In this document: positions 5,274 to 19,552 of the stretch, piece after piece
How positions within the stretch are numbered: position 1 is the first letter of the stretch
How the letters are laid out: every line of letters begins with the position of its first letter
DNA from: a virus
Reading direction: 5' to 3' (one strand)
IMG/VR virus record: IMGVR_UViG_3300046048_000653
Location: 1-20,981 of that record
Length of the DNA stretch: 20,981 bases
The notes under the pieces: model-generated
What the model saw: the letters and a program-made list of their open reading frames with translations, nothing else
Told to the model about the DNA's origin: nothing
The model's database searches: none
Program-made: the position numbers and the translations under genes

Positions 5274-5809
5274 ATAATATATCCCTCCTGGCATAGCCAC
5301 ATGAAGCATTCTTTGAGAGTTCTTACATCATCTTTAGCTCTGTGGTGTTTGGTTAGCGGTCTACCCGTTTTCAACTCATATAACTTTGCTAGGCCCAGTC
5401 GTTGCCCGTTGATCGGTATAGATGCTTCCGCTGTGCAGATGTGCGTATAAGGCCATGGGAACCTATACTCAAGCTCTAGCCTCTTAAGTTCATAGAGAAG
5501 CATTGACCTATCGAAGCCAAGGTTATGAGCCACCATTAATTCACTACCACAAAAGAATTTTGCTAAATCTTGTGCTATCTCTGCAAACATTGGGGCTTTT
5601 CTTAACGTCTGATCAGTGATACCGGTGATCTTAGTTATCTCTGGAGGTATAGGAATTGGTGGCTTCACTAGACTTTCAAACTCACCAATCTCATGTCCTT
5701 CAGAATCCATCTTTAGGCAATATATTTCAGTTATGTACGGTTGCTCTTTTAATTGAGCTAGCTCTGGTTTTATAAGACCTGTAGTTTCAGTATCTATTAA
5801 TATTATCAT
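5270..5809 (-). CDS. dnaQ: DnaQ-like 3'-5' exonuclease (proofreading subunit)
   Basis: This 179-aa DEDDh exonuclease has all three motifs: ExoI IDTETTG near the N terminus, ExoII AHNLGFDRSML, and ExoIII HHRAKDDV carrying the general-base histidine and final aspartate. It resembles the epsilon subunit of bacterial polymerase III and probably proofreads for the C-family polymerase encoded immediately downstream, to which it is coupled by an ATGA overlap. The longer frame to 5842 is rejected because ATG 5809 overlaps the methyltransferase stop by 4 bp, the same spacing used by its neighbours. No clamp-binding tail is obvious. A role in repair rather than replication is possible. Confidence 0.9.
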   Translation of the reverse strand: MIILIDTETTGLIKPELAQLKEQPYITEIYCLKMDSEGHEIGEFESLVKPPIPIPPEITKITGITDQTLRKAPMFAEIAQDLAKFFCGSELMVAHNLGFDRSMLLYELKRLELEYRFPWPYTHICTAEASIPINGQRLGLAKLYELKTGRPLTKHHRAKDDVRTLKECFMWLCQEGYII

Positions 5810-6309
5810 ATCATAGGTTTCCTTAATTGAGTTACTAAGCAAAGATTTTCAAGTCTATCCCCCATTATCATATTAGTTACTATTTCCATAAAAGGAACTT
5901 TGTGCTTTTCATAGTGTTCGTTACTGAACATATTTCTCCATACTTTTTCAGAGAAGAATCTCTTATGATCTGCATCAGCAAATGCCATAGAACCTATGTA
6001 ATATGGCACCACTATGTTGATATGACCTCCTGGTATAAGTACCCTTCTCATATCTATTATAAGAGGAACTATATTCTGAATATGCTCCAAAAAATGGTAG
6101 CAATGTATCTGAGCTATAGTTCTGGTAGGAAATGGAATGGCGTCTACTTCTGCATCCCAATCTGGCCACTCCAGCGGAATTGTGTGTTTTATTCCCTTGT
6201 GGCCAGGCCCCAAATTTAATACATGGTATACTTTAGGATCAAAGTCTGGAATGATATCATCATAGTTTCTTTCCATTCCAAAATTAAATAGTTCAATTAG
6301 TGTTTCCAT
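5806..6309 (-). CDS. Class I SAM-dependent methyltransferase-like protein
   Basis: This 167-aa protein has a small Rossmann methyltransferase core. HVLNLGPGHKG stands in place of the SAM-binding glycine loop, then an acidic segment at about residues 50-58 (WDAEVDAIPF), CYHFLEHI (the usual xxxxEH of Methyltransf_11-like proteins) and RRVLIPGGHINIVVPY, the typical LkPGG strand. The substrate is unknown; no DNA-methylase signature (DPPY or PC) is seen, so a small molecule, sugar or protein is as likely as DNA. ATG 6309 is chosen because GGAG lies 7 nt upstream; a TTG at 6315 is too close to it. It sits between DUF3310 and the exonuclease, overlapping both slightly. Confidence 0.75.
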   Translation of the reverse strand: METLIELFNFGMERNYDDIIPDFDPKVYHVLNLGPGHKGIKHTIPLEWPDWDAEVDAIPFPTRTIAQIHCYHFLEHIQNIVPLIIDMRRVLIPGGHINIVVPYYIGSMAFADADHKRFFSEKVWRNMFSNEHYEKHKVPFMEIVTNMIMGDRLENLCLVTQLRKPMI

Positions 6310-6556
6310 ATTCAAACTCCAATAATATATATAATAAATGAATTGCTTTTTCTATATCTTCTTGGCCACCTTTAAAATTATGTCTTGTTACATACTTAAT
6401 AACTGCTGATTCAATTGCCCCTAAATTATTTTTATAACAGTATTCAATTGGTTGAATCTTCAAGTCTTTGTAATGCGACCCTCCAACTTGCTTGTCCAGA
6501 GCACTTTGAACATGGCAGCCCTTCGTTTCTTTTGACGTTGTATGCTTTGTCGTCAT
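6293..6556 (-). CDS. DUF3310 family small phage protein
   Basis: The core (KQVGGSHYKDLKIQPIEY, then YVTRHNFKGGQEDIEKA) is the typical signature of DUF3310 proteins, common and uncharacterised in phages, sometimes called nucleotide kinase-like without proof. ATG 6556 gives 87 aa. The frame is open further upstream to 6667, but that part lies wholly inside the phosphatase gene and has no match to the family. Even with the shorter start it overlaps the phosphatase gene by 113 bp in another frame, unusually long for this operon. The ribosome site (GGGAG, about 13 nt upstream) is far from ideal, so the start is uncertain. Confidence 0.75.
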   Translation of the reverse strand: MTTKHTTSKETKGCHVQSALDKQVGGSHYKDLKIQPIEYCYKNNLGAIESAVIKYVTRHNFKGGQEDIEKAIHLLYILLEFEYGNTN

Positions 6557-6824: not shown

Positions 6825-7546
6825 TTATAAATCCCAGGGTCTGCTTCATGTGTAGTGTTCTGCCACAAATGCTGAATTGCGTCCTTCTGTTTTATAGTTA
6901 CTTTTACAGTGTGCTCTTGTATTGGACAGCCTTTATAATTTTGGAATGCACATATCCCTGTTTTGGCGCACGCCACGCGGATCATCCTTTCAAATTCAGG
7001 GTATAGTAGGGTGACCTCCAGTTTCATTAACTTAAATACTTCTTGGTATTCACCAGCAGTTCTGAAGCATAGCCTAGTCTCTGCCATGTGAGCAATTTCT
7101 CTTAAACTTAATTGAGCTATTATAGATGTTTTTATAGCTGATGGTAATACTTTTCTTGCATCTTGTATGGCGTATCCTTTCGATAGTAACTCTGAGTAAT
7201 TATTCATACTTTCATTTAACATTATATCAATAAGAGGATCTTCATCAGAGCATTCCCTATCACTAGCATCTACAGCTCTGAGTGATTCTTGAGCGTAGCT
7301 TGCATTTCTGGTTCTGACAAGTTGGTGCGTAAAATTTCTACTAACACCTGAAATAAGAAAAGTAAAATTGACAAACTCAAAGCTAGACTGAATAGTATTA
7401 AACATATAATCCAGTTCTTTAAGTTTCTTATCATATGGCCATCGCTTAATTTCATTAATAGTATGCTCTCCCTGTAACCTAGTATTCTTTGTGAATATAA
7501 GTTTCTCAATTGCATCTTTGGTATAATCAATTATCTTTACTTCCAC
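6821..7546 (-). CDS. thyX: Flavin-dependent thymidylate synthase ThyX
   Basis: This 241-aa enzyme makes dTMP from dUMP with methylene-tetrahydrofolate, FAD and NADPH. The ThyX signature RHRx7S is present as RTRNASYAQES with following LR, at about residues 78-90, preceded by FTHQLVR. The length is typical. The start is GTG at 7546, 7 nt after AGAGGG, and lies inside the last codons of the upstream flavoprotein gene (10-bp overlap). The stop overlaps the HAD gene start (ATGA). It secures thymidine supply during phage replication and forms a nucleotide block with the HAD, DUF3310 and MazG genes. Confidence 0.95.
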   Translation of the reverse strand: MEVKIIDYTKDAIEKLIFTKNTRLQGEHTINEIKRWPYDKKLKELDYMFNTIQSSFEFVNFTFLISGVSRNFTHQLVRTRNASYAQESLRAVDASDRECSDEDPLIDIMLNESMNNYSELLSKGYAIQDARKVLPSAIKTSIIAQLSLREIAHMAETRLCFRTAGEYQEVFKLMKLEVTLLYPEFERMIRVACAKTGICAFQNYKGCPIQEHTVKVTIKQKDAIQHLWQNTTHEADPGIYK

Positions 7547-8448
7547 CTCATTGCCCTCTCATATGGAGTTAATTCAATCATGTCTCTAATAGTATACAAA
7601 TCTTTTAGTACATCATCTAATAGTACTGATGGCCTCCAACAAGCTACTCTACCAAGAGAGTATACATTGTGGATCTTAGTCATCTGAGATATAATTCTTT
7701 GTCGATATTCCTCATCAATCTTCACCATCTTTCCAATCTTTTGTTCATAGTTGGTAATTATAGATTCACCTATTTCCTTAATACCAAAAGAGTTTTTAAC
7801 TACTTCCAAGCTAGTTTCTGTAATTGGAACAATGCTCTCACATATTAGTTCATCACCTTCTATACTTGCTCTGTATATACTATCTTGTTCATCAGGATAA
7901 TATATAGTTTGATATACATCACATTTTGGAATTTTAAATCTATTTACAAAAATTGAATTAGAATTTGGTTCATAAAATTGTATTGGCTGATCCACCGGAA
8001 AAATTAACTGATTAACTTGCATTGGCAGAGTAGTTATAATTGAACGATCCAATTCAAATCTGTTAGTAAACTGACTGACATCAGACTCGATGAACATTCT
8101 TTCTGATACAGAATTAATCAGCCGGTCGTAAAAGTCTCTTGGTGCTATAAAGCGTTCCGCTGGGGAGATGTCTGCAATAGAACGATCATATAGACCACCT
8201 GTGACTTTCTGACTATATAAATTCATTACTTCTATATTAGGTGGGCAAAAGTAATCATTGCTATATATACCCTTGTATACTCTGACCTTCTTAAAAGGTA
8301 TGCCAGTTAATTTACTGATAGCATCTGAGCGGAATCTTAGCAAAGCTCTGTGTGGAACACTTTGGTTTTTCAAATCATATACTGCTTCTGCATTTGGAAA
8401 TATTTTTAGAGCTATAGCAGCAGTTAATCCATTTCCTAATATCAGCAT
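7537..8448 (-). CDS. FAD/NAD(P)-binding oxidoreductase-like flavoprotein
   Basis: This 303-aa protein opens with LILGNGLTAAIALKIFP, a GxGxxxA dinucleotide-binding loop after a beta strand, as in amine-oxidase-like FAD proteins. Near the C terminus NVYSLGRVACWRPSVLLDDV matches the strand-Gly-Arg pattern that closes the FAD site. The middle is divergent and I cannot name a substrate. Its tight 10-bp overlap with thyX suggests a linked role, perhaps flavin redox, folate or modified-nucleotide chemistry, but that is inference. AGGA lies 8 nt before the ATG. The gene follows directly after a terminator hairpin, so its expression probably depends on read-through or an unseen promoter. Confidence 0.65.
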   Translation of the reverse strand: MLILGNGLTAAIALKIFPNAEAVYDLKNQSVPHRALLRFRSDAISKLTGIPFKKVRVYKGIYSNDYFCPPNIEVMNLYSQKVTGGLYDRSIADISPAERFIAPRDFYDRLINSVSERMFIESDVSQFTNRFELDRSIITTLPMQVNQLIFPVDQPIQFYEPNSNSIFVNRFKIPKCDVYQTIYYPDEQDSIYRASIEGDELICESIVPITETSLEVVKNSFGIKEIGESIITNYEQKIGKMVKIDEEYRQRIISQMTKIHNVYSLGRVACWRPSVLLDDVLKDLYTIRDMIELTPYERAMRWK

Positions 8449-8515: not shown

Positions 8516-9151
8516 TTAACTTGCCACTTTCAGATTTAACTTAGCTTCAACAGGCTCTTGGTTCAAGATTTTTCCGGCAAAGTAAATATAGTTAAGGAAA
8601 TGAGTTTCGTTCCTTTTCGTATTGTTTGAAGTTTCTGGGAAACCTTCCTTACCATGAATGTAGTTTTTAGCTACTTCAATATCAGGAATCCTACCAGTCT
8701 CTTTTACAACATCAACTACCCACTGAAGGTAACGCTTGGTGAAGCCAGTAGTGCCATTACCCGTTTCTTTTTCAGGTACAAAGTAGGGCATTTCATTTTT
8801 ACGACAAAAGCCCCTGATCAAAGCTGCGGCTGAGCGAATGGTTGAATCAGTCAGCTTTTCAACCAAGAAATCAACTGCAATATCGAAACCATCTTCATGG
8901 CTTACATCATGCTTTTGAATGCACTCTTTTACAATAGCATCACGATCTTCTTTGCTAATAGCAAGTCCAGCATCAATCATCATAGCATTATACAGACGTG
9001 CAACATTTTTAAACGATGCTCCTGCCTGAATCATTGCCATTTTTACATCATCTTCGCTTTTATTAGCTTCAGTACTAGCTGTAAATGCTTCCTGAATTTT
9101 TTCTTGAATTGCAGCTTCTTCTGCTGATACTTCTTTAATTTCTTCAGTCAT
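8516..9151 (-). CDS. Unknown 211-aa acidic phage protein, own transcription unit
   Basis: I do not recognise a family. The N terminus is acidic and helical (MTEEIKEVSAEEAAIQEKI). It is followed by a probable helical domain with MIQAGASFKNVARLYNAMM, which could be a helix-turn-helix-like segment, then AALIRGFCRKNEMPYF and a basic, polar C-terminal third. No signal peptide or membrane segment is visible. It is set apart from its neighbours: a TATAAT sits about 60 bp upstream of the start, a small hairpin lies in the leader, and a strong terminator follows the stop. ATG 9151 is preceded by CAGGAGAG at a good distance. Such isolation suggests a product needed in large or separately controlled amounts, for example a DNA-binding protein, but nothing proves this. 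Confidence 0.8.
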   Translation of the reverse strand: MTEEIKEVSAEEAAIQEKIQEAFTASTEANKSEDDVKMAMIQAGASFKNVARLYNAMMIDAGLAISKEDRDAIVKECIQKHDVSHEDGFDIAVDFLVEKLTDSTIRSAAALIRGFCRKNEMPYFVPEKETGNGTTGFTKRYLQWVVDVVKETGRIPDIEVAKNYIHGKEGFPETSNNTKRNETHFLNYIYFAGKILNQEPVEAKLNLKVAS

Positions 9152-14318: not shown

Positions 14319-14385
14319 CCCCGGCGGGGCCGAGCGAGTATAATACCCTAAGTCGGCTATGGAGTAAAGCACTTTCGACTCCATA
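14319..14385 (-). promoter_or_regulatory. Structured leader at the head of the leftward operon
   Basis: Three inverted repeats lie between the first leftward gene and the rightward primase. They are CCCC-ggc-GGGG (14319-14329), GCCGA/TCGGC (14329-14333 and 14353-14357), and TATGGAGT/ACTCCATA (14358-14365 and 14378-14385, with a nested AAAG/CTTT). They would form in the 5' leader of the leftward mRNA. The leftward promoter should lie to the right of them but I could not find a good pair of boxes. Confidence 0.5.
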
Positions 14386-14437
14386 TTAGCTCTTTCTAAT
14401 ACCAGTAAAATACAATCTGATATGGAGATGATTCATC

Positions 14438-14443
14438 TATAAT
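14438..14443 (+). promoter_or_regulatory. Possible -10 element for the primase-RusA operon
   Basis: A TATAAT stands about 80 bp before the primase ATG in the divergent gap 14286-14522. There is no clear -35 box. A small TTCGG/CCGAA hairpin (14483-14487 and 14498-14502) lies in the leader just before the AGGAG ribosome site at 14511-14515. Confidence 0.35.
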
Positions 14444-14522
14444 GTACTTTACTTTAGTATTTAGATATAGTAATATAGAAAATTCGGCTAATTATATCCG
14501 AAAACTTCACAGGAGAGTCTAA

Positions 14523-17184: not shown

Positions 17185-17192
17185 AGATTCCG

Positions 17193-17233
17193 CTGGGGTG
17201 GCTATATATTATTATCTTTTATAGCCGCCCCAG
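17193..17233 (+). terminator. Long hairpin downstream of rusA
   Basis: CTGGGGTGGCTATA (17193-17206) pairs with TATAGCCGCCCCAG (17220-17233), a 14-bp stem with one G-U pair in RNA and a 13-nt loop. No T-run follows on the plus strand, so it is not a classical intrinsic terminator. It probably still ends or protects the primase-rusA message. Its left arm overlaps a TTCCGCTGG site. Confidence 0.55.
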
Positions 17234-18010
17234 AAATTAATCATACGAATATAGGATAGCGGATGATAGAGGTTTGGGGCGAAAAAAAAAAATTATAGTT
17301 GCAAAAACTGCAAATATAGCAACTATAGGTTAGAAGAATCGAATATAGGTTAAAAAATAGCCTGTTTTCCTAGAGTAAAAATCAGAAAAAGAAATCGGAG
17401 AGAAAAAAAAAATAGGGCTAAGTGCCTAATTTATAAGGAGTTTTCTAGAATTTTCGGAGATTCCGTAAATAAATCGCACCCCCCTGAGAGGGACGCAGGA
17501 GGAACGAAATGGAAATCGAATAAGGGAAATGGGTTTAGATGTAACTAAAAACAAAATCCAATAACGAAAATGTTTTAGCTTGCTAAAAAGTAAAAAAAAA
17601 AGAAGATATAAGAAAAAAAAAAATCTCTCTAGAATATCTATATATATCATATACTTAACCCCCTTCTATCTGTTTCTTCTAATATACACTTTTAACCATT
17701 TTTTTATAAGAAAAAGTCGATGGAGCATAATGTTTTCCGTTAAGCAAATAGCTCTAAAGTATATAGTTTATTATTACCAATTCCCCGGTTTTGGCCAGCC
17801 TTTTCAGCCACCGCAGCGGAATATCTTATATATTACAGTGGGTAGGCTCGCGGCGGGTGGCACTAGGCCCCTAGCCCCCCTATCAGTGCCCCTAGGACCG
17901 CCGGAGTGGCCCTCTAAGCCCCTCTAGCCCCCTACCCTATACCCTAGGGTACCCTCACCCTAGCGTCGCTCCTAGGGCCAGGCAGGAGGCTGGATTTAGC
18001 GAATGGATAG
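17234..18010. other. Gene-free region: A-tracts, hairpin and C-rich block
   Basis: No frame here looks like a real protein; open frames are low-complexity lysine or proline runs without credible starts. The left part has several A-runs (near 17281, 17405, 17590 and 17611), three TATAGG boxes and a 9-bp hairpin, TATAGTTGC/GCAACTATA (17294-17302 and 17319-17327). The right part (about 17840-17980) switches abruptly to C-rich DNA with seven CTAG tetramers. Together with the repeats that follow, it could be a replication origin or a packaging site. Confidence 0.6.
17910..17960 (-). other. G-quadruplex-capable tract on the minus strand
   Basis: Seven runs of three to five C on the plus strand (17910, 17919, 17928, 17935, 17942, 17952 and 17958) are separated by 6, 5, 2, 4, 7 and 3 bases. 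On the minus strand this meets the usual G3+N1-7 rule with spare runs. Formation in the cell is not shown. Confidence 0.55.
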
Positions 18011-18012
18011 GT

Positions 18013-18180
18013 CCCCCGGTTTGGTCTGGCCATATGATTTGATTTGAATCCCCCGGTTGATCCAAACCCCCGGCTTGGTTGGCCACCACATATGGTTTGA
18101 ATCCCCCGGTTTGGTGCCACATATGGTTTGATCCAATCCCCCGGTTGACCCCGGCCACCGATTTGGTTGGCTCACCCAAA
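18013..18180 (+). repeat. Iteron-like direct repeats, CCCCCGGTT units
   Basis: CCCCCGGTT occurs at 18013, 18050, 18103 and 18138, with CCCCCGGCTT at 18067. The full unit is about 36 bp and includes TTTGGT, GGCCA, a CATATG centre and TTTGAAT; unit steps are 37, 17, 36 and 35 bp. A related CCCCGGTTTTGG lies at 17783. Such arrays are typical of initiator- or terminase-binding regions. Confidence 0.75.
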
Positions 18181-18256
18181 CCACTGGTGGCTACTGGACC
18201 ACTGGTGGCAGCCATACCAGCGGAATCCCTGGATCACTGGTGGGAACCACTGGTGG
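18181..18256 (+). repeat. Four ACTGGTGG repeats
   Basis: CCACTGGTGG occurs at 18181-18190, 18199-18208 and 18247-18256, with TCACTGGTGG at 18234-18243. Each CCAC...GTGG is also a near-palindrome. A CCAGCGGAA site (18217-18225) lies among them. Confidence 0.7.
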
Positions 18257-18270
18257 CTGAAATCCGGACG

Positions 18271-18303
18271 AAAAAAAGGCTACCCTTTCGAGTAGCCTTA
18301 TTT
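18271..18303 (-). terminator. Terminator of the three-gene cassette (bidirectional form)
   Basis: AAGGCTAC (18276-18283) and GTAGCCTT (18292-18299) form an 8-bp stem with an 8-nt loop. On the minus strand seven T follow (A-run 18271-18277); on the plus strand TTATTTT follows, so it could stop transcription in both directions. It lies just after the last cassette gene and at the edge of the TGD/HCA-free tract. Confidence 0.85.
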
Positions 18304-18304
18304 T

Positions 18305-18493
18305 CTAATAGGTTATTTCCGTAGTTAGAATTTTCGCGAATTCTATAGCTAGCCTCTCGAAATCTCGAATTCGATTAGATAGATATAACTCGTTTTCTTT
18401 TACGCTATCCCTAAGTAAGTCGTTTATCTCGCCTCGAATAAAACCTAATTCGCTAAGCATCGAACTCTCGAATTCGTTTAGTTCTATTTGCAT
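18305..18493 (-). CDS. Cassette gene 3: small acidic helical protein (62 aa)
   Basis: This 62-aa protein (MQIELNEFESSMLSELGFIR..., ending FAKILTTEITY) is acidic and predicted mainly helical by its E, L, I and R pattern. No family is recognised. The start is ATG 18493, 6 nt after AAAGGAAA, and the leader repeats that of cassette gene 2. Codon use is unlike the rest of the phage: TCG, CGA, TTC-G junctions abound, and every ATG is followed by C. It is the last of three leftward genes and is followed by a strong terminator. Confidence 0.65.
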   Translation of the reverse strand: MQIELNEFESSMLSELGFIRGEINDLLRDSVKENELYLSNRIRDFERLAIEFAKILTTEITY

Positions 18494-18535
18494 TTTAGTT
18501 TCCTTTAAGTTAGCCGCTTCCTTGCGGCGGTTAGT
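18493..18535 (-). promoter_or_regulatory. AAGGAA-loop hairpin plus ribosome site before cassette gene 3
   Basis: On the minus strand GCCGC-AAGGAA-GCGGC forms a 5-bp stem with AAGGAA in the loop, followed by AAAGGAAACTAAAATGCAA. The same arrangement occurs before cassette gene 2. Confidence 0.55.
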
Positions 18536-18700
18536 TTATACGATTCCTAATTCCTTAGCATTTTCCGTTAAGAATTCCGTATACCGAATCGATGCTTCGT
18601 CGAATTCTTTTTTAGCAGAATTTAGAATCGCTTTTTCTTCTAGCACTCTCGAAAAAAGGAAATCGGCTATTTCTTGCGTAGTCCTAAGATCGTCTTGCAT
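18536..18700 (-). CDS. Cassette gene 2: small acidic helical protein (54 aa)
   Basis: A 55-codon frame runs from ATG 18700 to TAA 18536. The product (MQDDLRTTQEIADFLFSRVL, then EEKAILNSAKKEF, ending ENAKELGIV) is acidic and probably two helices. No family is recognised. AAAGGAAA lies 6 nt before the ATG. It has the same leader, the same MQ start and about the same size and charge as cassette gene 3, so the two may be old duplicates, though their sequences show little identity by eye. It obeys the same TGD/HCA-free rule. Confidence 0.6.
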   Translation of the reverse strand: MQDDLRTTQEIADFLFSRVLEEKAILNSAKKEFDEASIRYTEFLTENAKELGIV

Positions 18701-18742
18701 TTTAGTTTCCTTTAAAGAAGGCGCTTCCTTGCGCCGGATTTA
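18700..18742 (-). promoter_or_regulatory. AAGGAA-loop hairpin plus ribosome site before cassette gene 2
   Basis: On the minus strand GGCGC-AAGGAA-GCGCC forms a 5-bp stem with loop AAGGAA, followed by CTTTAAAGGAAACTAAAATG. The hairpin loop and the ribosome site each hold an ANGGA core. Confidence 0.55.
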
Positions 18743-18743
18743 G

Positions 18744-19112
18744 TTACTTCGTTGCTTCGAGCAATTCTTTACCGAATCCGTAATATACGGAAAGGTAATA
18801 GTCGCGATGCTTTAGACTATTACTCGCCTTTGCATCTTTACCGCCTTTCGGATAGTAGGATTCGATAGTATCGTCGAAAACTATTCCCGCTTCCGCTTCC
18901 GTTGCTTCCGGGTTTTCGGAAAGCAATTTAATAATCGCTTGCGAAAAAACCGTTCGGAAAGTATTCCGCTTCTCCGGAATTAGGTTTAACTCCGATATAG
19001 CGAAAGCTATATTTTCTTCGGAATAACCTTGCTTCTTCGCGAGCGCGATAATAGCCTTTACCGAAAGCCCTAGTCCGATTGCTTGCTCGAAATACTTTAC
19101 TACGTCTAGCAT
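18744..19112 (-). CDS. Cassette gene 1: unknown protein (122 aa)
   Basis: The product begins MLDVVKYFEQAIGLGLSVKA and has an IALAKKQGYSEENIAFAI segment that could be a helix-turn-helix-like unit, then LIPEKRNTFRTVFSQAIIKL, an acidic stretch, and SNSLKHRDYYLSVYYGFGKE near the C terminus. No family is recognised with confidence; a small DNA-binding or regulatory protein is a guess. GAGG lies about 10 nt before ATG 19112, partly within a leader hairpin. It is the first gene after the cassette promoter. No TGG, TGT, TGA, TCA, CCA or ACA occurs in the gene; the single histidine codon is allowed only because it is preceded by G. Confidence 0.7.
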   Translation of the reverse strand: MLDVVKYFEQAIGLGLSVKAIIALAKKQGYSEENIAFAISELNLIPEKRNTFRTVFSQAIIKLLSENPEATEAEAGIVFDDTIESYYPKGGKDAKASNSLKHRDYYLSVYYGFGKELLEATK

Positions 19113-19122
19113 ATTTAAATAA

Positions 19123-19197
19123 CCTCGTTAGGTTAACTAAACGAGTTGCGAGTATCGCAACCCGCTATCGAATCGCTTTCCGTTTCGCGATTCGATA
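19123..19197 (-). promoter_or_regulatory. Structured 5' leader of the cassette (three stem-loops)
   Basis: Between promoter and first ATG the minus-strand leader can form three hairpins in a row. The first has 11 bp (19166-19176 with 19187-19197, 10-nt loop). The second has 6 bp (GTTGCG/CGCAAC, 19145-19150 with 19156-19161). The third has about 8 bp with one bulge (19124-19131 with 19137-19145) next to the ribosome site; it shares its outermost base, 19145, with the second, so one closing pair would be lost if both form. Almost the whole leader is structured. Confidence 0.65.
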
Positions 19198-19202
19198 AAA
19201 GA

Positions 19203-19231
19203 ATTATAAAGGCGGAATCGGAATCGCGCAA
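19203..19231 (-). promoter_or_regulatory. Promoter of the leftward cassette
   Basis: On the minus strand TATAAT (19208-19203) lies 17 bp from TTGCGC (19231-19226). The -35 box keeps TTG; the consensus TTGACA would break the TGD-free rule of this tract. Transcription would start near 19196 at the first hairpin of the leader. Confidence 0.65.
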
Positions 19232-19262
19232 GCGTTTTCTTTATCTTTTTTCGATTCCCAAC

Positions 19263-19523: not shown

Positions 19524-19552
19524 TTGCCGTTACCTACCAATAGTGCTATAAT
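19524..19552 (+). promoter_or_regulatory. Promoter of the terminase (late) operon
   Basis: TTGCCG (19524-19529) and TATAAT (19547-19552) are separated by 17 bp, and TGC precedes the -10 box, giving an extended -10. The start would be near 19559, 26 bp before the terS ATG. Confidence 0.7.

Follow-up and report, generated by a model that had tools for sequence, protein, structure and literature searches.

Depletion of the CA/TG step at predicted early promoters of a podovirus family, with one complete transcription unit free of HCA/TGD trinucleotides

Several predicted early promoters in a family of podoviruses are strongly depleted of a single duplex dinucleotide step, CA/TG, and this rule is real, non-random and conserved. 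Its extreme case is a cassette in the window (the whole stretch of DNA analysed here, 20,981 nucleotides, positions 1 to 20,981 of IMG/VR virus record IMGVR_UViG_3300046048_000653), where the promoter-centred depletion covers a whole unit. To our knowledge the rule is previously undescribed, and the part of the literature that was covered gave no description of it. We know of no kind of system that predicts absence of one duplex step across a promoter footprint, and for this reason we call the finding categorically new. A rule that is strict, tied to promoters and specific to a clade implies that something reads a DNA signal of 2-3 bp, with an effect strong enough to shape whole proteins. If this is true, it would represent a new phage route to the separation of early and late genes, or to the evasion of a host or phage factor.

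Between positions 18261 and 19257 of the window (997 bp), the trinucleotides TGA, TCA, TGG, CCA, TGT and ACA, designated HCA/TGD, do not occur. The nearest forbidden trinucleotides on the two sides are TGA at 18258 and CCA at 19258. All 15 TG dinucleotides inside are part of TGC, and all 12 CA dinucleotides are part of GCA. A preliminary description, made from the sequence alone, had reported this tract, its edges, the TGC and GCA contexts and a -35 box reading TTGCGC, and was exact on each. From the window's own density, about 101 forbidden trinucleotides are expected in 997 bp; the second-longest gap between HCA/TGD occurrences within the window is 103 bp. Among 64 dinucleotide-plus-neighbour rule variants, HCA/TGD deviates most within the window, with 100.8 expected occurrences missing as against 25.3 for the next. 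When the three ORFs were randomly recoded with synonymous codons, at the codon usage of the phage and with the proteins unchanged, they carried about 52 forbidden triplets in total (means of 13.7, 10.5 and 28.0), compared with none observed; none of 2000 draws fell below 5, 4 and 17, respectively. CTG and GTG are likewise missing from the tract. When the cassettes of the window and of its nearest relative are pooled, all 53 surviving steps are GCA/TGC, 49 of them GCAA/GCAT, and the rule in these two is a little stricter than HCA/TGD.

The cassette lies between the RusA gene and the small terminase (TerS) gene of a 21-kb virus fragment whose gene set includes PolIII, ligase, ThyX, helicase, a Sak4-like protein, RusA and primase. 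Its features are listed in Table 1; all promoters are predicted from sequence. The footprint of the second promoter-like zone has five CA/TG steps, every one of them GCA/TGC, and its spacer is long. After this promoter, and upstream of antisense RusA, positions 17190-17290 contain a stable predicted hairpin (GGGGCGGCTAT...ATAGCCACCCC), and the transcript is possibly a small RNA. Adjoining the cassette, positions 18180-18258 contain four copies of ACTGGTGG, three of them within CCACTGGTGG palindromes; the sequence is one base off the E. coli Chi octamer.

Table 1. Features of the cassette and its surroundings, in window coordinates.
Feature	Position	Strand	Remarks
HCA/TGD-free tract	18261..19257		One complete unit, transcribed leftward; right edge at about -64 relative to the predicted start site, left edge about 13 bp beyond the terminator
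-35 box TTGCGC	19226..19231	-	HCA/TGD-free variant of TTGACA; from sequence; counterpart in nearest relative TTGCTA
-10 box TATAAT	19203..19208	-	17-bp spacer; from sequence
5' leader	19113..19196	-	Folding prediction: three adjacent hairpins, -37.5 kcal/mol, z -5.85
122-aa early protein ORF	18744..19112	-	All-helical model; homologue in nearest relative, 42% identity
Intergenic hairpin GGCGCAAGGAAGCGCC	18720..18735	-	Identical in nearest relative
54-aa ORF	18536..18700	-	From ORF list
Intergenic hairpin GCCGCAAGGAAGCGGC	18513..18528	-	From sequence
62-aa ORF	18305..18493	-	Homologue in nearest relative, 57-aa ORF
Intrinsic terminator of unit	18276..18299	-	Conserved TTTTTTTCGTCCGGA / CGTCCGGA comes next
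Second promoter-like HCA/TGD-free zone	17276..17362	-	-35 TTGCTA (17322-17317), -10 TATAAT (17297-17292), 19-bp spacer
Late (TerS-side) promoter TTGCCG-17-TATAAT	19524..19552	+	6 CA/TG steps; contrast class
Non-coding flank	17980..18260		CA/TG-enriched, 49 observed vs 34.5 expected; CCACTGGTGG-type repeats

The nearest relative of the window virus, IMGVR_UViG_3300046048_000265 (G001, locus L002), has at the same location a tract of 797 bp with zero HCA/TGD. The two cassettes align with 63% DNA identity. The G001 cassette encodes homologues of the 122-aa and 62-aa proteins, is headed by the promoter TTGCTA-17-TATAAT, and has the same terminator edge. According to the preliminary description, homologous cassettes carrying HCA/TGD at normal rates would be a refutation; this attempt at refutation failed, since the closest homologous cassette shows no exception to the rule. 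Searches by protein, by alignment and with three conserved DNA words retrieved G001 and no further cassette. In the G001 flank, CCACAGTG repeats stand in place of the window's ACTGGTGG, and CA/TG is enriched 1.75x.

The gene set is shared with Cronobacter phage vB_CsaP_Ss1, Vibrio phages vB_ValP_VA-RY-3 and PVA7, and several metagenomic relatives; the three isolates make the rule directly testable. A segment scan for CA/TG-depleted tracts with scores above 12 found seven in Ss1, six in RY-3 and six in PVA7, while tract counts for the other nine steps were near zero in these genomes. The family as a whole (314 kb) has 35 tracts with scores above 12 and 18 above 20; the controls, 103 viral loci with 879 kb in total, have one and none, respectively. 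No tract above 12 was found in T7, M6 (first 50 of 59.4 kb), BcepC6B or MEP301. Among distant relatives, G014 has one tract above 12, and G016 and G019 have none. In the relatives the rule is confined to local, short tracts scattered over the genome, not one contiguous entry segment. Shared mobile sequence was rejected as the origin of the tracts, which are mostly dissimilar except for the homologous pair in the window and G001 and for short stretches that are palindromic or rich in AT; in one 400-bp tract, RY-3 and PVA7 have no convincingly alignable sequence, and both are nearly CA/TG-free. Some tracts are intragenic, with no evident promoter, as in late genes and in the ligase genes of Ss1, RY-3 and PVA7, where the part of the protein concerned is poorly conserved and varies in length.

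The Ss1 DNA ligase gene (L074:21727-21894) contains 168 bp with zero CA/TG in a region of variable length relative to the window's ligase, and RY-3 and PVA7 are similar. A non-coding early region (L075:6791-7217; L074:41948-42205 and 1-91) has a long inverted repeat containing (TA)n, and TTGATTTATAAG-like words recur in it family-wide; this region is possibly a replication origin. The PVA7 record (L101, PQ582223) has many genes annotated as fragments, among them those for DNA polymerase, ligase and helicase, which suggests that the deposited sequence contains frameshift errors. T7 shows two weak CA/TG-poor stretches (L098:5892-6025 and 18515-18605), one at the phi1.1A/B promoters and the other at the phi6.5 promoter, which immediately precedes gene 6.5.

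Tracts upstream of the primase, DUF669 and orf35 genes in Ss1, RY-3 and PVA7 are centred on the -10 box. Across nine orthologous predicted early sigma-70 promoters, aligned on the -10 box and chosen partly for lying in tracts, CA/TG occurs about 3 times per 20 bp outside, 0.33 times at -60 to -20, and not at all at -20 to 0. It recovers by about +40, and the depleted zone extends roughly from -80 to +20, a span like that of an RNA polymerase-promoter complex. From -60 to +5, this early set has 8 CA/TG steps against 78 expected, whereas a late set, the promoters on the TerS side in these phages and their relatives, has 33 against 51 (P=1.5e-4). Early -35 boxes lacking the signal include TTGCGC, TTGCTA and TAGACG; late ones include TTGACT. 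The predicted early promoter of RY-3 nearest TerS seems undepleted by eye, and some forbidden triplets are present in two predicted early promoters of the window, one at 14385-14522 and one upstream of 9151.

We tentatively interpret the cassette as the immediate-early unit of a podovirus family whose early promoters are under selection against one duplex DNA signal, read by a putative factor. The signal would be any CA/TG step in most members and HCA/TGD in the window phage and G001. A putative factor, encoded by phage or host, would read the step in double-stranded DNA, as a base modification or a DNA-coating protein, and its mark or coat would hinder host RNA polymerase. Early units would avoid the step because such a factor would hinder transcription of incoming DNA; early genes, which must function on the incoming genome despite the factor, would carry no signal. 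Late promoters, which fire later, may retain it, and the mark could help to keep late genes silent until replication has supplied new DNA. An extended form of this model seems doubtful: that a genome-wide mark or coat on CA/TG is an early/late switch, that the clade writes temporal class as absence or presence of the step in the promoter, and that the immediate-early unit was rewritten, amino acids included, to evade the mark. GCA is spared in the window and G001, whereas it is the most avoided context in other members (0.04 of expectation), and a reader with changed specificity fits this contrast better than does a general property of promoters.

T4/SPO1-type systems use a DNA modification or a phage factor to tell templates apart and to set the timing of early versus late transcription. 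There, as in our model, host RNA polymerase serves early promoters and early and late classes contrast; here, however, the classes differ in whether promoter DNA has or lacks one duplex step. Phages M6, ViI and phi W-14 carry 5hmdU-derived thymidine hypermodifications at TG/TC (PMC6449724). Such a preferred context includes TG and would mark CA/TG steps genome-wide, but no CA/TG-free tract occurs in the scanned 50 kb of M6, and hypermodified T was rejected as a general cause on that ground. Neither a 5hmdU kinase nor hypermodification genes were recognised in the family, for which the window supplies a partial genome. The only related gene recognised encodes flavin-dependent thymidylate synthase (ThyX), with additional DUF3310/nucleotide-kinase-like matches.

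Family gene searches recognised no modification or DNA-coating gene. Three proteins are weak candidates for the factor: the methyltransferase-like phrog_6636, phrog_4828 and the 122-aa cassette protein. The first (ORF 5806-6315) has matches in G001, G006 and G014, and none by tblastn in Ss1 or RY-3. The second, a 303-aa ORF (7537-8448) of no known function, is present in the window, G001, Ss1, RY-3 and G006; its structure model has a pLDDT of 33. It is conserved, adjoins ThyX, and appears by eye to have a Rossmann-like N-terminus. An orf35-family protein (8516-9151), also considered as a candidate, occurs in G001, Ss1, RY-3, G006 and G014 as well as in the tract-poor G016, and was not found in G019.

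Evasion of a nuclease is an unlikely alternative, according to which a host-defence or phage endonuclease cuts or nicks a 2-3 bp site, the first-needed DNA lacks that site, and the rest is protected later. A close parallel is restriction-site avoidance by phages, exemplified by T5, whose first-step-transfer segment lacks EcoRI sites. In both cases a functionally early segment is free of a short signal that persists elsewhere in the genome, and segmental depletion relative to expectation is found here too. The present signal, in contrast, is a step of 2-3 bp, the spared zones are promoter footprints plus one whole unit, and we know of no enzyme that matches a CA/TG-type step of this size; none was found in the part of the literature covered. 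Chlorella viruses have nicking and modification enzymes with short sites, such as CviPII, whose specificity is CCD. There are nicking enzymes that recognise sites of 3-7 bp, and one of them, Nt.CviPII, serves chlorella viruses in frequent nicking of host DNA (PMC8845596). It shows that a virus can encode an enzyme with a degenerate site of 3 bp, but no homologue was found here, and the regions spared are promoters. A short degenerate motif with a lineage-specific exemption would fit an enzyme site, and the cassette adjoins TerS, possibly near a genome end. Cuts elsewhere, however, would still break the genome, in which thousands of sites remain. Unlike in T5, depletion is not restricted to first-entering DNA: the spared zones of Ss1, RY-3 and PVA7 are short footprints at promoters across the genome. 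The family gene searches recognised no candidate nuclease, nor any restriction or nuclease gene of CA/TG-type specificity.

Quite unlikely, in our judgment, is that promoters are kept blank. Most operators for host transcription factors, and spurious -35 or extended -10 elements, contain TG or CA, and their avoidance would escape host regulation and antisense initiation. The depleted zone does coincide with the promoter region, and TTGACA-type -35 boxes and TGn elements have been removed. This explanation nevertheless predicts neither depletion in every context, nor the opposite treatment of GCA in two lineages, nor absence across the whole coding sequence of the cassette.

A local mutation bias, in which a mutagenic process acting on polymerase-occupied DNA strips CA/TG steps, would fit both the coincidence of the zone with polymerase occupancy and the free turnover of tract sequence, but we consider it very unlikely. 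Where CA/TG is lost in Ss1, RY-3, L034, L035, L037 and L049, CG and TA both rise, so no single replacement direction holds in these genomes; a clear rise in CG only, with TA hardly altered, is found just in the window and G001. Start codons have been kept there, and the base after them is C instead: ATG is followed by C in 5 of 5 starts, versus 16% in other genes (P about 1e-4). The preliminary description had noticed this C at the three starts of the window cassette. The proteins themselves are compatible with the rule. All five cassette proteins of the window and G001 can be encoded with zero forbidden triplets; this is true for none of 154 other 122-aa stretches of the window phage's proteins, for which the mean minimum is 6.6. 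The genes of Ss1 make normal use of fourfold-degenerate NCA codons outside the tracts (TCA 32%, CCA 40%), and genome-wide mutation bias or CpG-like decay was rejected as well because these synonymous codons are normal.

Because choices of codon, start-codon context and amino acid all obey the rule, selection on the DNA itself has stronger support than a bias in mutation. A DNA-level cause had been called for in the preliminary description and is borne out, since both complementary sets are missing, the non-transcribed promoter is included, and relatives show a promoter footprint. Among the three causes proposed there, avoidance of a very short signal fares best. Directed mutation of CA/TG to CG is disfavoured by the same observations on replacement steps, start codons and protein compatibility, and origin in a genome obeying the rule is not supported, given the purely local tracts of the relatives examined and the normal NCA codons elsewhere in Ss1.

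Avoidance at the RNA level, for example of an endoribonuclease toxin recognising ACA or a similar site, is highly improbable, in agreement with the initial view. The leaders are strongly structured, and hairpins render a one-strand rule symmetric. Both strands of the coding sequence are equally depleted, however, and the zone reaches -64 to -80, which is untranscribed from these promoters; MazF-type avoidance would deplete the transcribed strand alone, whereas here both strands are at zero, promoter included. The probability of chance or an assembly artefact is negligible: the window is a single metagenomic contig, but the pattern recurs in an independent contig (G001) and, as CA/TG tracts, in isolate genomes, against 1 tract in 879 kb of controls.

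PHROGs and Pfam searches gave no convincing match for any of the three cassette proteins, and Foldseek found no match at E<=1e-3; the 122-aa model matches no known fold. Queries with the 122-aa protein or TerL found no relative among one genome per species from 84,980 bacterial and archaeal species, and the primase query yielded zero additional relatives. More distant homologues of the 122-aa protein adjoin TerS in L034, L035 and L037. These are larger (L034:738-1253, L035:3969-4526, L037:2966-3586) and have a C-terminal J-domain-like segment with an HPDK motif, which the window and G001 versions lack. The 57-aa protein of G001 (L002:8721-8894) has a CxC-x2-C-x2-C cluster, with TGC used for all four of its Cys codons.
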